A DNA stretch of 64,000 bases from Solirubrobacterales bacterium (GCA_035573435.1 DATMZR010000006.1:1-64000), one strand, 5' to 3'; counted from the stretch's first letter, positions 8,261-21,434 are shown. Numbers and translations: made by a program. The notes: a model not told the origin generated them from the letters alone.

Positions 8261-8301
8261 ATTGGCGAGTTTGTGGCGCATACCGCCCCAAACTCGCCAA
8301 T
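8261..8301 (+). repeat. Intergenic hairpin repeat, family 1, copy 1
   Basis: ATTGGCGAGTTTG (8261-8273) pairs perfectly over 13 bp with CAAACTCGCCAAT (8289-8301). The centre TGGCGCATACCGCCC forms a weaker inner stem. It begins 36 bases after the Fe-ADH stop. Related copies lie at 36831 and 53715, each also shortly downstream of a plus-strand stop codon. There is no T-run. Confidence 0.8.
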
Positions 8302-8386
8302 GCCCGGCCTCGGCGGCGGCTCGCTGCCACGCGCACGCGGCCTTGCCGAGCAGTAACGGCGTCCGTTACCGCGTGTAGGCATCTGT

Positions 8387-10102
8387 GTGGACGAGGGCCA
8401 GGTGAGATCCGCGCCGCCACGCACTGACTCGGTGATCAGCGAGGAGCGCTTCCAGCGCTACCACGCGTATGCGCGTCGGCGCGGCGTCAACCGGGGCCTC
8501 TACGTGCTTGCTCGTCTCATCCTCCAACCGGCGTTCCAGGTCTGGCTTCGTCTCTCGCGGGTCGGGCGCGAGCACCTGAGGGGAATCGAGGGCGGCTTGA
8601 TCATCGCCTCCAATCACCGCAGCTTCCTCGATCCCTTCGTGATCGGCATGACGCTTCCCTGGCGGCGCCCGATGCAATACGTGGCCAAGGTCGAGCTGTT
8701 CGAGAGTCGCTGGCGAGGATGGGTCCTCTCGCGGGTCGGGGCCTTCCCGATCCGGCGCGGGCAGTCGGACGAGACCGCCATGGAGACCGCGCGGCTGGTG
8801 CTCGATCGCGGCGGCACCATCTGCATCTTCCCCGAGGGGACACGGATCCGATCGGGCTCGCTCGGCACGCCCAAGCGCGGCGTCGGCCGCCTGGCCTTGG
8901 AGACCGGAGCGGCGGTCGTCCCGGTGGCCGTCCAGGGCAGCGAAACGGTGCGGCGCGGCTGGCGGATTCGCCCCCGGAAGGTGAGGCTCCGCGTCGGTAG
9001 GCCCATGGGTTTCCCCCGCACGGCGCATCCGTCGCCGGCGCTCGCGGCGACGGTGACCGCCCGAATCTGGCCGAACGTCGAGCTCCAATGGGAGTGGCTG
9101 GGTGGCCTGCCGCCGCTGCGCAAGGCCGCGGTGATCGGGGCCGGCAGCTGGGGCACGGCGATGGCAGTGCTGCTGGCGCGGGGCGGGCTCGACGTCCAGC
9201 TCGGAACGCGCTCCCAGGAAAGGGCCGATGAGATCGCCGCCAAGCGCCTTAATGCTCGATACCTGCCGGGTGTCACCCTGCCCGAGTCCGTCGCCGTGAG
9301 GCGTGCCGGCGAGATCGAGCTCGCCGGGGTGGATCTCGTTTGCCTGGCTGTGCCGTCCGCCGCGCTGCCGGCGGCGGTCGGCTCGCTCGGCGATCGGATT
9401 GGCTCGCGCGCCGCGGTGCTGATGCTCACCAAAGGGCTCGTGCAGCCGTTGGGCCAGCTTCCCAGCGACTACGTCGGCGAGCGAATCCGAGCCCGCGCCA
9501 TCGCCTCGCTGGGGGGCCCCGCCCACGCCCGTGAGGCCGCTGCCGGGATGGCTGCGCTGGTGTTGGGCTCGAACGACCAGGACCTGCGGGCCCAGCTGGG
9601 AGAGGTCTTCGATCGTGCCGGGCTTGTCTGCGAGCGCAGCGACGACGTGGTCGGGGTCGAGATGGCGGGCGTCGCCAAGAACGCCGCCTCCCTTGGCGCC
9701 GCGGCGGCCGAAGCCCACGGCCTCAATGCGGCGGGGATCGCCGCCGCAACGATCTGGCGCGAGTGCGTCGCCTACGCGCTGGCGAGCGGTGCCGAGCTGG
9801 ACACCTTCACCGGACTGGCCGGCATCGGCGACTTGACCGCCACCGTGATCGCACCCGGCAGCCGGAACCGACGCGCGGGAGAGCTGCTGGGCGCGGGTGT
9901 TGCCGCCGAGCAGATCCCGGGCCGGATCGGCCAGGCGTCAGAGGGGCTCGACTCGGTGCCGCTGCTCGCCGAGGCCGTCGCCCGGGCCGGCATCGAGGCG
10001 CCGGGTCTGCACGGGCTTTCGGCCCTGATCGCGGGACGCATCGACCCCGGTGAGTGGGTCGCCGGGCTGCGGCGCGCGGAGCGGACCCGCCGGGCGGCCT
10101 AG
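8387..10102 (+). CDS. Fusion of 1-acyl-glycerol-3-phosphate acyltransferase (PlsC) and glycerol-3-phosphate dehydrogenase (GpsA)
   Basis: A 571-residue single open reading frame that joins two steps of phospholipid synthesis. Residues 20-230 are a PlsC-type acyltransferase: NHRSFLD (76-82) is the HX4D catalytic motif and FPEGTR (148-153) the glycerophosphate-binding block. Residues 245-560 are GpsA, which reduces dihydroxyacetone phosphate to sn-glycerol 3-phosphate: GAGSWGTAMA (251-260) is the dinucleotide fold, MLTKGL and GVAKNAASLG carry conserved lysines, and GLAGIGDLTATVIAPGSRNR is the substrate site. The GpsA half is somewhat divergent (GGPAHAREAA for GPSFAxE). GTG 8387 is the furthest start; GTG 8432 (MISEERFQRY) is also plausible. 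The ECF sigma gene follows 25 bases later. Confidence 0.88.
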   Translation: MDEGQVRSAPPRTDSVISEERFQRYHAYARRRGVNRGLYVLARLILQPAFQVWLRLSRVGREHLRGIEGGLIIASNHRSFLDPFVIGMTLPWRRPMQYVAKVELFESRWRGWVLSRVGAFPIRRGQSDETAMETARLVLDRGGTICIFPEGTRIRSGSLGTPKRGVGRLALETGAAVVPVAVQGSETVRRGWRIRPRKVRLRVGRPMGFPRTAHPSPALAATVTARIWPNVELQWEWLGGLPPLRKAAVIGAGSWGTAMAVLLARGGLDVQLGTRSQERADEIAAKRLNARYLPGVTLPESVAVRRAGEIELAGVDLVCLAVPSAALPAAVGSLGDRIGSRAAVLMLTKGLVQPLGQLPSDYVGERIRARAIASLGGPAHAREAAAGMAALVLGSNDQDLRAQLGEVFDRAGLVCERSDDVVGVEMAGVAKNAASLGAAAAEAHGLNAAGIAAATIWRECVAYALASGAELDTFTGLAGIGDLTATVIAPGSRNRRAGELLGAGVAAEQIPGRIGQASEGLDSVPLLAEAVARAGIEAPGLHGLSALIAGRIDPGEWVAGLRRAERTRRAA

Positions 10103-16328: not shown

Positions 16329-16949
16329 ATGCCGTTTCCGAGCCTCGTGCCCCGGGACCGGGTCTTCTTCGACCTCTTCAACGAGGCCGGACAAAACACG
16401 GTGCGGGCCGCTCGGATGCTCCAGGAGATGCTCCACAAGTGGCCCGACGACAGCGGCCTGGCTCGCGAGATCCTGCTCGCCGAGCAGGAGGGCGACCGCA
16501 TCACTCACGACATCGCGCAGCGTGCCAACTCGACCTTCGTCACCCCGATCGACGTCGAGGACATTTACAGCCTGGCGGGGAAGGTCGACGACATCGTCGA
16601 CCACATCGAGGAGACCGCCGACTTCATGGGGCTCTACCGGATCGAGGCGCCGATGGACCAGTCCCTGGCGATGGCCGACGTCCTCGTCAAGGCCTGCGAG
16701 CAGCTCGCCATGCTGCTCGAAAATCTGCGCGGGTTCAAGGACCTCGACAAGTACTGGATCGAGATCCACCGGCTCGAGAACGACGGCGATCGGCTCTTCC
16801 GTGAAGCCCTCGCCTCGCTGTTCGCTGGCGGGACTGACCCGATGGTGGTGATCCGCTGGAGGGACATCTTTCTCAGGCTCGAGCGGGCGATCGATGCGAC
16901 CGAGAACGCCGCAACCGTCATCGAGGGCCTCGCGATGAAGAACGCATGA
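16329..16949 (+). CDS. DUF47 family (PhoU-like) Pit accessory protein
   Basis: A 206-residue all-helical cytoplasmic protein of the DUF47/PhoU-like family. Features are QNTVRAARMLQEMLHKWPDD, LLAEQEGDRITHDIAQRANS with metal-binding Glu/Asp, TPIDVEDIYSLAGKVDDIVD and HRLENDGDRLFREALASLF. Such proteins are encoded beside Pit transporters and are thought to modulate phosphate flux. The pit gene begins 29 bases downstream, so the pair is one operon. ATG 16329 follows the wecB stop by 9 bases. Confidence 0.93.
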   Translation: MPFPSLVPRDRVFFDLFNEAGQNTVRAARMLQEMLHKWPDDSGLAREILLAEQEGDRITHDIAQRANSTFVTPIDVEDIYSLAGKVDDIVDHIEETADFMGLYRIEAPMDQSLAMADVLVKACEQLAMLLENLRGFKDLDKYWIEIHRLENDGDRLFREALASLFAGGTDPMVVIRWRDIFLRLERAIDATENAATVIEGLAMKNA

Positions 16950-16978
16950 CCGGCGATCCGCTCGCCGCCGGCAGGTAA

Positions 16979-18076
16979 ATGGACAACGACTTGATCATGG
17001 TGATCGTGGTCGGCACGGCGCTGGCCTTCGACTTCACCAACGGCTTCCACGACACTGCGAACGTGGTCGCCACCTCGATTTCGACCAAGGCGATGCCGCC
17101 ACGGCTGGCCGTCGCCTACGCTTCCGTGCTGAACTTCGCCGGCGCCTTTCTCTCGATCGCGGTAGCGGCGACGATCGCCCAGGACGTGGTCGCCAGCGAT
17201 GCGATCACCCCGACCGTAGTGTTCGCCGGGCTGATCGGGGCGATCTCCTGGAACCTGATCACCTGGTACTACGGGCTTCCGTCGAGCTCCTCGCACGCGC
17301 TGATCGGCGGGGTGGTGGGGGCCGCGTTCGTGGCGGCTGGCGCCGACGCGGTGCTGGCGGACGGGGTGCTGGGGAAGGTGCTGGTCCCGGCGGTTGTGGC
17401 ACCCGTTCTCGCCTTCGTCGTCGGCGGGATCGCGATCGTGATCTGTTACCGCACAGTGGGGCAGCTGCGCCCCGGTCCGGTGACGCGTGGATACAGGCTG
17501 GGCCAGGTGGTCTCCGGAGGGCTGCTGGCCCTCGCCCATGGCACCAACGACGCCCAAAAGACGATGGGGGTGATCACGCTCGCCCTGATCGCCAACGGCA
17601 ACCTCGGCCCGGACGCCGACCCACCGACCTGGGTGATCATCTCGTCGGCGACCGCAATCGCGTTGGGGACCTACTCGGGCGGATGGCGGATCATCCGCAC
17701 GATGGGGTCGCGGATCATCAAGATGGATCCCGCCCAGGGCTTTTCGGCTCAGGGAGCCGGGGCGGCGGTCATTCTCGCCTCCACCCACTACGGCTTTCCG
17801 CTGTCCACCACCCAGGTGATCTCGGGCGGGGTCATGGGCGCGGGCGCCGGCAAGCGGCTGTCCGCGGTTCGCTGGGGGGTCGCCGGGAACATCGTCACCG
17901 CGTGGCTCCTGACGCTTCCGGCAGCGGCGGGGATCGGTGCGCTCACCTACGGGGTGACGCGGGTGTTCGGCACGGGATCGCTGGGACCGGCGATCGTGAC
18001 CGCGATCGGGCTGGCGATGGTCGCGGCCATCTTCACGCGGCGGGTTCGTCGCGAGGCGCCGGTGCCGGCGCCCTGA
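16979..18076 (+). CDS. pit: Inorganic phosphate transporter, Pit family
   Basis: A 365-residue membrane symporter taking up metal-phosphate with protons. The two inverted family signatures are present: DFTNGFHDTANVVATSISTK near the N-terminus and ALAHGTNDAQKTMGVITLAL in the second half. GLPSSSSHALIGGVVGAAF and GFPLSTTQVISGGVMGAG are the paired serine-rich hairpins. About ten membrane helices are predicted, with a short basic tail. It is coupled to the upstream DUF47 gene. Low-affinity constitutive uptake is the usual role; no PHO box was recognised. Confidence 0.94.
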   Translation: MDNDLIMVIVVGTALAFDFTNGFHDTANVVATSISTKAMPPRLAVAYASVLNFAGAFLSIAVAATIAQDVVASDAITPTVVFAGLIGAISWNLITWYYGLPSSSSHALIGGVVGAAFVAAGADAVLADGVLGKVLVPAVVAPVLAFVVGGIAIVICYRTVGQLRPGPVTRGYRLGQVVSGGLLALAHGTNDAQKTMGVITLALIANGNLGPDADPPTWVIISSATAIALGTYSGGWRIIRTMGSRIIKMDPAQGFSAQGAGAAVILASTHYGFPLSTTQVISGGVMGAGAGKRLSAVRWGVAGNIVTAWLLTLPAAAGIGALTYGVTRVFGTGSLGPAIVTAIGLAMVAAIFTRRVRREAPVPAP

Positions 18077-18785: not shown

Positions 18786-19133
18786 GTGGAGCGGCGCGAT
18801 GGTGAGAGGGGCCAGGCATCGGTCGAGCTGGTCGCTGCGATCCCGGCACTCGCTCTTGCCGCCCTCCTGGTCGCGCAGCTCACCCTTGCCGGCTACGCGC
18901 TGTGGAGCGCCGGGGTCGCTGCGAGAGCCGGGGCACGGGCGGCGTATGTAGGCGGAGACGGCGAGCGCGCGGCTCGGGCCTCGCTGCCGGGGCCGCTGCG
19001 AAGCCACGCCACGGTGAGTGATCGGGACCGGGTCCGGGTCGAGCTCCGGATGCCGTCGCTGGTCCCCGGGATGCCGCGCGTTCCGATCACGGCCAGGGCC
19101 GGGCTCGGGGTGGGGGATGGCCGCGGGCGGTGA
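18786..19133 (+). CDS. TadE-like pseudopilin (1)
   Basis: A 115-residue protein with the TadE pattern: a short charged N-terminus ending RRDGERGQASVELVAAIPAL, where the RGQASVE segment precedes a single N-terminal membrane helix (LALAALLVAQLTLAGYALWS), then an extracytoplasmic domain. TadE/TadF-type proteins are processed by a prepilin peptidase and help build Tad pili or related secretion systems. Starts at GTG; the following TadE-like gene overlaps its end. No TadA ATPase or TadB/C platform gene is in the window. Confidence 0.8.
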   Translation: MERRDGERGQASVELVAAIPALALAALLVAQLTLAGYALWSAGVAARAGARAAYVGGDGERAARASLPGPLRSHATVSDRDRVRVELRMPSLVPGMPRVPITARAGLGVGDGRGR

Positions 19134-19467
19134 GCGGGGCCAGGCGTCGATCGAGGTGCTGGCGGGCATTCCGGCGCTGCTCCTTGCCGGCTTGATCGCC
19201 TTCCAATTGCTCGCCACGGGCTACTCGTTGACGCTGGCCGACGGCGCTGCCGAGGCCGGTGCGATGGCCATCGCGGCGGGACGGCCGGCCGCTCCCGCGG
19301 TTCGCGAGGCTCTGCCCGGCTGGGCGCGAGAGCGGGTCGGAGTCGAGACCGATGCCGGCCGGCTGACGGTGCGATTGCGGCCGCCTTCGCCGCTGGGGGC
19401 GCTCTCGCACCGCCTCGAGGTGAGCACGTCGGCGTGGGTGCGAAGGCCCGGGGTCGCACGCCGTTGA
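19117..19467 (+). CDS. TadE-like pseudopilin (2)
   Basis: A 116-residue paralogue of the preceding gene: GERGQASIEVLAGIPALLLA leads into one membrane helix (LLLAGLIAFQLLATGYSLTL), followed by ADGAAEAGAMAIAAGRPA and a small extracytoplasmic domain. ATG 19117 lies inside the end of the upstream gene (17-base overlap), so translation is probably coupled. The frame is open upstream, but conserved content begins here. Its stop TGA overlaps the likely TTG start of the downstream fusion gene. Confidence 0.8.
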   Translation: MAAGGERGQASIEVLAGIPALLLAGLIAFQLLATGYSLTLADGAAEAGAMAIAAGRPAAPAVREALPGWARERVGVETDAGRLTVRLRPPSPLGALSHRLEVSTSAWVRRPGVARR

Positions 19468-21434
19468 TCCTCACCACCGAGCTCGGCGAGGCGCGCGGCG
19501 GCCTCCCGGTCGCGGCGGCTGTGGGCGTCGCGGCGAGCGTCGAAGAGAAGCCAGGGCCAGGGTCGGGCGTGCTGCTCGCCGAGCTGGGGGCGGAGCGTGG
19601 GCGCGGCCCCACGATGCTGGCCTCCGTTCAGGCCCGCGAGCTGGAGGAGAGGCTTCGCACGGCCGGCTTCGAGCGGGTGGCCGCTCGCGGCAGGCTCTGC
19701 TGGCTCGGGCTCGCGGCGACCGAGGAGGCACTGGCGGAGCTGCCGCGCCTGCACCCGGCGCTGCAGGAGGGCGGGCTGGCGATCGTCCATCTGCCCGCGC
19801 AGCTGTGGCCGCTGGCCCTCGATCAGCGGTCTCTCTGTCCACAGGCGGGGCTCCTTCGCGCCGACCTTCCGGCCGACCGAGCGCTGGCGGCGCTGGCGGT
19901 CACGGAGCTGCGGGAGCGGCGGTTGCGCGCGCGGATTGCCGCGCGACCGCTCGGCCGGGTCGCCTCGCGCCGCGCGATGGCGGGTCTGGAGGTCGGAGGC
20001 GCCGCCGCCAACCGCGTCAGCCGGCTGGCGCGCGGCCTGGTCGGGCGCGCCCGCGCGCCCGACCAGGATCGGGGCCAGGCCCTGCTGATGGTGCTGGGGG
20101 CGGCTTTCGCGATCCTGTTCGCCGCGGCAGTGCTGGCGGCGCTCGGGGGCGCCCTGACCGCGACGGCCCGAGCGCAGCGGGCGGCGGATCTGGTCGCGCT
20201 GTCGGGAGCCCGCTCGCTGCGAGACGACTTCGACCGGCTGTTCACGCCGCCTCTTCTGCCCGGTGGGGCGCCCAACCCCCTCCATCTGGACCGGCGCGAG
20301 TACCTGGCGCGAGCCGCCGAGGCGGCGCGCGAGGCCGCGACCCGGAACGGCGTCGATCCCGATCGGGTGCGCGTCTCGTTTCCCGATGCCGCCTCCTTCG
20401 CGCCTCTGCGAGTGCGCGCCGAGCTCGCCGCCTCAGTCGACACCGATGCGGGTCGCGGGAAAGGGCGGTGGAGCTCGGCCGCCGACCACGGATCTTCCCG
20501 CGACGCGATCGGAATCGAGGCCAGCGCCGAGGCCATGGCTGCTCCGCCGTCCTCATCAGCCGGGTTACGGACCACGGCCAGCGGTGGCGGCTACTCGGGG
20601 CCTCTGGTCTACCGGCAGGGGGAGCCGATGAGGCCGGACGTCGCGCTGGCCTTCGATCGCATGGCCGCCGCTGCGCGCCGGGCTGGGGCCTGGCTGGTCA
20701 TCAATTCCGCATACCGCTCCGACGCCGAGCAGGCCCGCCTCTACGCCGAGCACCCGGACCCCCGCTGGGTCGCACCTCCCGGCCAGTCGCTGCACCGCTG
20801 CGGCACCGAGCTCGACCTGGGTCCGCCGTCCGCCTATCCGTGGCTTGCCGCCCATGCGCCGCGCTTCGGCTTCGTACGGCGTTACTCGTGGGAGCCGTGG
20901 CACTTTGGGTACGAGAAGGGCCCGGCGCCGTGCTCGCCGGTCGGAGGGAGTTCCGGCGGCGGGCACGGATCGGCGGATGGGGACGCGCCCGGCGTCGGCG
21001 ACCCGAGCTTCGTGCCGGCGCGCTTCAGGTCACCCATCGTGCGCGCCGCGACGCGCTGGGACGTCTCCGCCGGGCTGCTCGCCGCTCAGCTGATGGCGGA
21101 GTCGAACTTCAACCCGTTCGCGTTCTCGGCGGCCGGTGCCCAGGGCATCGCCCAGTTCATGCCAGCCACCGCACGCGCCTACGGGCTCGACGACCCCTTC
21201 GACGCCCGGGCCGCCATCGATGCACAGGCCCGCCTGATGTCAGACCTCGTGCGTCAGTTCGGCACCGTGGCCCTGGCGCTCGCCGCCTACAACGCAGGCC
21301 CGGCTGCGGTGGCGGCCTGCGATTGCGTCCCGGACTATCCCGAGACCCAGGCCTACGTGGCGCGGGTCCTCGGGCTGATGGGCGGTGCCGGGGAGCTAGC
21401 TGCCCCCGCCCTCGAGGTGCGCCTGGTCGATTAA
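19464..21434 (+). CDS. Multidomain fusion: unknown N-domain, TadG-like membrane segment, VanY-type D,D-carboxypeptidase, SLT lytic transglycosylase
   Basis: A 656-residue protein from TTG 19464, whose TTG overlaps the previous stop as TTGA; GTG 19434 would add ten residues (numbering below uses 19434). Residues 10-205 are an unrecognised cytoplasmic domain (LILTTELGEARGGLP, GLAIVHLPAQLWPLA). QDRGQALLMVLGAAFAILFA (211-230) and ARAQRAADLVALSGARSL form a TadG/pseudopilin-like membrane anchor. Residues 385-495 are an M15 (VanY) peptidase: SAYRSD, SLHRCGTELD (His454, Asp461) and EPWHF (Glu487, His490), so the zinc site is complete. Residues 530-650 are a soluble lytic transglycosylase domain with catalytic Glu556 (AQLMAESNFNP), GAQGIAQFMPATA and LAAYNAGP. 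The two enzymes would face the cell wall and cut both peptide and glycan strands. It is the third gene of the pseudopilin operon. Confidence 0.87.
   Translation: MILTTELGEARGGLPVAAAVGVAASVEEKPGPGSGVLLAELGAERGRGPTMLASVQARELEERLRTAGFERVAARGRLCWLGLAATEEALAELPRLHPALQEGGLAIVHLPAQLWPLALDQRSLCPQAGLLRADLPADRALAALAVTELRERRLRARIAARPLGRVASRRAMAGLEVGGAAANRVSRLARGLVGRARAPDQDRGQALLMVLGAAFAILFAAAVLAALGGALTATARAQRAADLVALSGARSLRDDFDRLFTPPLLPGGAPNPLHLDRREYLARAAEAAREAATRNGVDPDRVRVSFPDAASFAPLRVRAELAASVDTDAGRGKGRWSSAADHGSSRDAIGIEASAEAMAAPPSSSAGLRTTASGGGYSGPLVYRQGEPMRPDVALAFDRMAAAARRAGAWLVINSAYRSDAEQARLYAEHPDPRWVAPPGQSLHRCGTELDLGPPSAYPWLAAHAPRFGFVRRYSWEPWHFGYEKGPAPCSPVGGSSGGGHGSADGDAPGVGDPSFVPARFRSPIVRAATRWDVSAGLLAAQLMAESNFNPFAFSAAGAQGIAQFMPATARAYGLDDPFDARAAIDAQARLMSDLVRQFGTVALALAAYNAGPAAVAACDCVPDYPETQAYVARVLGLMGGAGELAAPALEVRLVD

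Follow-up and report, generated by a model that had tools for sequence, protein, structure and literature searches.

A class-wide family of TadG-like proteins carrying VanY and SLT wall hydrolases and its possible role in a split Tad-type DNA-uptake machine of Solirubrobacterales

Results

Three overlapping genes end in a pilin-like protein with two wall hydrolases

The window analysed here is a stretch of 64,000 nucleotides (GCA_035573435.1 DATMZR010000006.1:1-64000) that forms part of contig C6 of a draft genome (2.58 Mb, 97% complete), and its relatives are Solirubrobacterales of the class Thermoleophilia. It contains two genes for TadE-like prepilins followed by a gene for a minor-pilin-like protein in which a pilin helix is joined to two peptidoglycan hydrolase domains (Table 1). 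The original prediction, which was made from the DNA alone, held that the two small genes are coupled to the large one. This was found to be the case, since all three genes are on the plus strand, the two TadE-like genes overlap by 17 nucleotides, and the second overlaps the large gene by 34 nucleotides. The large product, which had been estimated at about 656 residues, is 666 residues long when counted from the first GTG.

Table 1. Features of the locus and domains of the 666-residue protein, in window coordinates
Feature	Position	Strand	Description
TadE-like prepilin 1	18786..19133	+	115 aa, GTG start, processing site G/QASVE; NCBIfam TadE_Rv3655c 6.5e-5, below cut-off
TadE-like prepilin 2	19117..19467	+	116 aa, processing site G/QASIE; NCBIfam TadE_Rv3655c 2.1e-4, below cut-off
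Minor-pilin-like protein (TadZ-like domain, pilin helix, VanY, SLT)	19434..21434	+	666 residues from first GTG
N-domain, residues 10-205	19461..20048	+	degenerate ParA/MinD/TadZ-like fold as modelled, no Walker A lysine; AlphaFold2 and Foldseek
Type IV pilin alpha-1 / TadG anchor, residues 213-265	20070..20228	+	unbroken 53-residue helix in the predicted structure
Alpha/beta region, residues 287-370	20292..20543	+	predicted structure, mostly >80 pLDDT, lower at ~331-360
VanY M15 peptidase, residues 399-493	20628..20912	+	Pfam 3.4e-15; S452, H454, D461, E487, W489, H490 invariant
SLT lytic transglycosylase, residues 535-627	21036..21314	+	Pfam 2.8e-18; E556-S557, GIAQFMP, Y619-N620 invariant
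Membrane protein, 117 residues	18342..18695	+	constantly found next to the TadE pair; no Pfam match over the cut-off

In the full-length predicted model, the N-domain is followed by the helix, an alpha/beta region, VanY, a disordered linker (residues 497-521) and SLT. Both hydrolase domains were complete, as had been claimed: VanY matched PF02557 with 56.4 bits (cut-off, 25), and SLT matched PF01464 with 66 bits (cut-off, 21.3) with its catalytic Glu present. An alignment of 29 sequences contained 69 invariant columns that included all the expected catalytic residues. The zinc and catalytic residues of VanY (SxHxxxxxxD and ExWH) were invariant, and the E556-S557, GxxQxxP and AYNAG-type motifs of SLT were kept. 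Judged by these residues, both hydrolase active sites are intact.

The TadG-like membrane segment named in the original prediction corresponds to the long helix of the model. The Tad family of Pfam (PF13400) matched residues 214-260 (0.0022, 18.7 bits) under its cut-off of 22.3, and the NCBIfam model TIGR03816 (Rv3654c-like) matched the 666-residue protein at 2.8e-6, also below its cut-off, the match spanning only the first half of the 109 model positions. The start of the helix, G214-Q215, was invariant among the 29 sequences and is the expected cut position of a prepilin peptidase; the Glu at +5 is missing in this protein and is present in both small genes. In type IV pilins, a small alpha/beta head comes after a long helix, and the alpha/beta region that follows the helix in the predicted structure is possibly such a head. 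With this arrangement, the N-domain would lie on the inner side of the membrane and the enzymes on the outer side, and the N-domain may be removed by prepilin peptidase between G214 and Q215.

The TadE assignment of the two small genes is based on their motif and its conservation and not on family cut-offs. Pfam PF07811 gave a value of only 0.1 for the first gene and no match for the second. Among 76 related loci, G-x-x-x-x-E prepilin sites ahead of a hydrophobic stretch were present at least once in 63 and at least twice in 55, and TadE-like genes were found near the hydrolase gene in 57 of the 60 loci having enough upstream sequence. The TadE calls are thus weak by scores alone, but firm by conservation across these sequences.

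The TadG-VanY-SLT family extends through the class

Complete proteins of the TadG-VanY-SLT type were found throughout Solirubrobacterales (families f1-f4). They are also present in another family of the class, f5, which is probably Miltoncostaeales according to the label of one related contig. The arrangement is encoded in a single open frame across the order and retains the 69 invariant columns mentioned above, and it is therefore not an assembly artefact. Two findings that had been foreseen as fatal to the prediction, a sequencing error joining separate genes and hydrolase domains forming a separate gene in close relatives, were not borne out, and the hydrolase domains share one gene with TadG. 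As far as sequence comparison goes, the fusion is a class-wide family and not a local one, and only the attachment of the N-domain varies. In a sample of the phylum, matches outside the class covered essentially the SLT domain only. In a Cellulomonas protein (L094:257-1291), the SLT domain precedes VanY, and its gene lies beside a ParA-like ATPase gene and membrane-protein genes, in a gene row that resembles a conjugative element.

The N-domain is modelled as a degenerate TadZ-like fold

The N-domain had been described as a cytoplasmic domain of no known kind; its identity was resolved by structure comparison only. Pfam and NCBIfam profiles gave no match on it or on its standalone relatives, and the sole match of a PDB sequence-profile search, 2csj (Tjp2 protein, 0.0012), was judged implausible. 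The AlphaFold2 model of the N-domain was confident (predicted local distance difference test, pLDDT, 89.8), and the best PDB match found by Foldseek was the ParA-family ATPase 3ea0 (E 7.6e-5, probability 1.00), with further matches that included nitrogenase Fe protein, BcsQ, Soj, MinD, ParF and FleN. The lysine of the deviant Walker A motif is missing, the loop being TELGEARGGLP in the window and APRCGGTTVARALA in the standalone relative L041. Since the structural matches are of the ParA/MinD type and the Walker A lysine is absent, the model identifies the N-domain as a degenerate ParA/MinD (TadZ-like) fold.

The N-domain is fused to TadG in the family of the window (for example L039, L119, L135 and L136), is encoded by a separate gene in L126-L129, and is fused ahead of the second TadE gene (TadE2) in aquatic Solirubrobacterales (L060, L062, L063, L064 and L066). 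The last five fusions retain the prepilin processing site, and their TadZ-like domain may be cut off in maturation. In L126 (G023), the N-domain gene is separated from the hydrolase gene by genes for a VapC-like toxin and an epimerase-like protein (8293-9759).

A motor cluster without pilins lies beside mraZ

No tadA, tadB or tadC was present in the window by gene calls, as had been stated. The further suggestion that the locus is a detached module did not hold, since the likely ATPase and platform are encoded beside a cell-wall and division cluster on contig C32. Two TadA-type clusters were found in the source genome. The cluster on contig C14 is a complete canonical Tad locus with a prepilin peptidase, an Flp-like gene, TadE, TadG, a CpaB-like gene, TadZ and TadA. 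The cluster on C32 consists of a response regulator, a kinase, CpaB, TadA, TadB and TadC, contains no pilins and ends at mraZ-mraW-ftsI-murE-murF (T2SSE, 5e-63; two T2SSF proteins, 1.1e-10 and 6.4e-12; CpaB TIGR03177, 6.7e-17). The order regulator-kinase-CpaB-TadA-TadB-TadC-mraZ recurs in several families of the order and partly in f5.

The pairing of the module with one of the two TadA proteins rests on gene order and co-occurrence because family scores do not separate them, TIGR03819 being alike for both (351 vs 357 bits). The canonical Tad locus was rejected as the partner, as genomes with only that TadA are without the hydrolase: seven genomes with only a TadZ-linked TadA (G085, G097, G109, G120, G263, G281 and G287) contained neither the hydrolase nor ComEC. 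A prepilin peptidase was present in 31 of the 31 hydrolase-positive genomes examined. Flp (PF04964) matched only on C14 in the source genome (1e-4, below cut-off) and in none of the other hydrolase-positive genomes examined, although Flp pilins are short and divergent and may be missed by Pfam.

The hydrolase is co-inherited with the mraZ-linked TadA and ComEC

Co-occurrence was evaluated in 76 genomes with a completeness of at least 90% and a contamination of at most 5%. TadA proteins were classed as mraZ-linked by their identity to the one encoded on C32, gene order was checked in a sample of the genomes, and G011 was dropped as a carrier after its locus had been read. The hydrolase and the mraZ-linked TadA were both present in 56 genomes and both absent in 13, with 5 genomes having the hydrolase only and 2 TadA only (p=5e-9), and the hydrolase and ComEC were both present in 59 and both absent in 12, with 2 having the hydrolase only and 3 ComEC only (Fisher p=1.2e-9); these p-values are descriptive and overstate independence because the genomes are related and the losses are clustered in few genera. 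The ATPase PilB of the type IVa (T4a) pilus was independent of ComEC (39 both, 5 neither, 9 PilB only and 23 ComEC only; p=1.0), and this pilus was rejected as the general competence pilus of the sampled bacteria. In 18 of the 76 genomes, the mraZ-linked TadA was the only T2SSE-family ATPase, and all 18 had ComEC. The source genome itself encodes ComEC (4e-49, C6:172532-173359), with a ComEA-like gene, read by eye, just upstream. Loss of the hydrolase occurred in at least two families, and genus g22 is mixed, G322 having the hydrolase and G065 being without it.

Mobile elements interrupt both halves

Elements with serine recombinases split the mraZ-linked tadA (G315, G126 and G075) or the hydrolase gene (G315 and G119) in four genomes. 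Both genes are split in G315 (L176/L187 and L185/L186), by elements of ~51 and ~11 kb with a serine recombinase beside each break. The hydrolase gene of G119 (L194/L193) is split at the VanY EPWHY codons as in G315, the two genomes belonging to two genera. In G075 (L213) and in G126 (L180/L181), which is of another family, tadA is split near codon 290 by elements containing serine-recombinase-like genes; over the three genomes, the breaks in tadA lie near codons 145 or 290. These recurrent break positions in tadA and the hydrolase gene look like attachment sites. Mobile elements that disrupt competence genes are a documented conflict with transformation (PMC4774983). Judged by the split genes themselves, the interruptions would fit this pattern.

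Neighbouring genes

In 51 of 60 related loci, the gene for the 117-residue membrane protein lies no more than 4.5 kb from the hydrolase gene, sometimes divergently, and the protein is a candidate for an extra part of the machine. In the window (16329-18076) and in L050, L052, L058, L062-L064, L121, L132 and L217, the module is preceded by phosphate genes. By family, the upstream genes are phoU-like and pit in f1, pstB-phoU-regulator in f2, and a pyrophosphatase or uppP in f3, and uvrC is usually downstream. The phosphate neighbours may be linked to the module through the use of DNA as a source of phosphorus. Solirubrobacterales-like sequence was also found under public records titled Bifidobacterium breve (L058, L063, L064, L075 and L112), which are probably mislabelled metagenome bins.

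Discussion

The conservation of the TadG-VanY-SLT proteins and their co-inheritance with a split Tad motor and ComEC suggest a pilus for DNA uptake that makes its own opening in the wall. We consider it somewhat probable that the window carries the pilin half of a split Tad-type natural-transformation machine whose other half is the C32 cluster beside mraZ. In such a machine, the TadA ATPase and the TadB/TadC platform would raise both TadE pseudopilins together with the TadG-like protein from the membrane, and the raised subunits would form a short filament or its priming or tip complex. At the outer face of the TadG-like protein, the lytic transglycosylase would cut glycan strands and VanY would cut stem peptides, making a hole exactly where the filament passes the thick wall, and DNA would reach ComEA/ComEC via the opened wall. 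Positioning or anchoring of the complex would fall to the TadZ-like N-domain, whether it sits on the helix at its inner side or is made as a protein of its own. Computation supplies the domains, the intact catalytic residues, the spread through the class, the co-occurrence with the mraZ-linked TadA and ComEC, and the independence from T4a pili, and from these we infer assembly, wall cutting, the position of the filament and the uptake of DNA. Of the function given in the original prediction, a pseudopilin-like anchor with two hydrolases, likely a wall-opening Tad-like part, is retained; DNA uptake was not proposed there.

Several observations weigh against a DNA-uptake machine of this kind. 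The TadE family scores of both small genes are below the curated cut-offs of Pfam and NCBIfam. The pilin half and the motor half are paired by co-occurrence; a locus uniting them was looked for and not found, and the two lay apart wherever both were placed. No Flp-type major pilin was found in genomes with only the mraZ-linked system, so that a long pilus is not assured. A VanY carboxypeptidase alone would not open cross-links. The losses cluster by genus (g22, g34, g36 and g38 in one family and g32 in another), G080 has ComEC without the hydrolase or TadA, and G012 and G036 have TadA and ComEC without the hydrolase, in a set of draft or incomplete assemblies that bring false absences and noise.

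The same genes could form a secretion or adhesion pseudopilus, the ordinary role of Tad, with its own wall opener, and the link with ComEC would then come from shared lineage-specific loss. All the genes are Tad homologues, the losses are clustered by genus, and Tad systems are mostly adhesion devices (PMC4322843). However, such a co-loss is seen neither for PilB nor for the canonical Tad, 18 genomes retain ComEC with the mraZ-linked ATPase only, and no Flp gene was detected by Pfam; we regard this role as unlikely. In most of the genomes inspected, and in several families, tadABC comes directly ahead of mraZ. This raises the alternative of a Tad-like system that remodels the wall when cells divide or separate, in which tadABC by mraZ-mraW-ftsI would work with pilin-tethered hydrolases that cut the septal wall. 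VanY and SLT are an autolysin-like pair, and a ParA/MinD-like domain could recognise division sites. Yet whole genera are without the module, its loss tracks ComEC, and the repeated interruption by mobile elements implies that it is dispensable. As the adjacency to mraZ may be an inherited accident and the hydrolase half is located elsewhere, a division role seems decidedly unlikely.

The fusion could also be a membrane-anchored autolysin that has borrowed a TadG helix for use as its signal anchor and works independently of any Tad motor, to which the weak Pfam match of TadG (0.0022) and the location of tadABC in another locus would be congenial. The constant company of prepilins with processing sites (57/60 loci), the co-occurrence with TadA and the invariant G-Q at the start of the helix make such an autolysin improbable. 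The reported requirement of a Tad-like apparatus for prey killing by Myxococcus (PMC8460266) brings up a variant of that apparatus for contact-dependent killing or predation, in which the wall enzymes would hit another cell; the hydrolases are predicted to face outward, and prey DNA could feed ComEC. We find it highly improbable, as no immunity-like gene stands out at the locus, the hydrolases are membrane-tethered, and the strong conservation of the enzymes looks like that of a housekeeping function rather than a weapon.

Returning to the split DNA-uptake machine, we put forward with slightly less than even confidence its most specific form: the minor pilin would be a two-enzyme wall drill and the first case of a peptidoglycan hydrolase that forms part of a Tad filament subunit, and in some lineages the same pilin also carries a pseudo-ATPase domain that would position it. 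The passage of Tad through peptidoglycan is an open question, for which the TadG-VanY-SLT family, with active sites that appear intact, is a direct candidate; if the proposal is true, a two-enzyme minor pilin answers how a Tad filament gets through a thick wall. The module predicts natural transformation in Thermoleophilia, which are soil actinobacteria and in which a literature search found none discussed. Culturable hosts of the family exist, namely Solirubrobacter soli and Conexibacter arvalis, and the idea is thus open to experiment.

Comparison with known systems

Transformation of Micrococcus luteus depends on two tad loci that lie far apart and include TadE/F and a PF13400-like distal gene; also required is a separate CpaB gene, whose locus encodes a sensor kinase and TadZ as well (PMC4322843, PMC8467076). 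The Thermoleophilia system is similar in its split actinobacterial Tad genes, TadE/F minor pilins, TadG-like gene, CpaB, TadZ, kinase and comEA-comEC. It differs in that tad-2 of M. luteus has an Flp major pilin (PMC4322843, PMC8467076), whereas no Flp was found in the genomes with only the mraZ-linked system. Those papers, as far as consulted, report no wall-hydrolase domain for the TadG-like proteins of M. luteus, whereas TadG of Thermoleophilia is fused to VanY and SLT. In NCBIfam, the TadE pair comes closest to the mycobacterial tad gene Rv3655c and the TadG helix to Rv3654c, with scores below the curated cut-offs. The homologues of TadA, TadB, TadC, CpaB/RcpC, TadE and TadG are shared with the RcpC/RcpA Tad/Flp (type IVc) pilus of Pseudomonas, whose TadG is a predicted minor pilin (PMC12307814). 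As of the same structural paper of 2025, no peptidoglycan hydrolase or lytic transglycosylase had been reported with a Tad pilus (PMC12307814), and unlike in Pseudomonas, the wall hydrolases are part of the pilin in Thermoleophilia.

Bifunctional VirB1-like hydrolases (CwlT and TcpG) open the wall for Gram-positive conjugation (PMC11753425). The 666-residue protein is like them in being a membrane protein with wall-cutting domains that would serve a DNA-transfer machine, and unlike them in that CwlT and TcpG belong to type IV secretion systems; by eye, no VirB4-, VirB6- or VirB8-type genes were recognised in the window or in the gene calls of the sampled loci, no profile search having been made. 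A further parallel is FlgJ, the flagellar rod cap with a muramidase, which has an unrelated scaffold and a single hydrolase domain and in which, as in the TadG-VanY-SLT proteins, a structural part of a trans-envelope machine is fused to a wall hydrolase.

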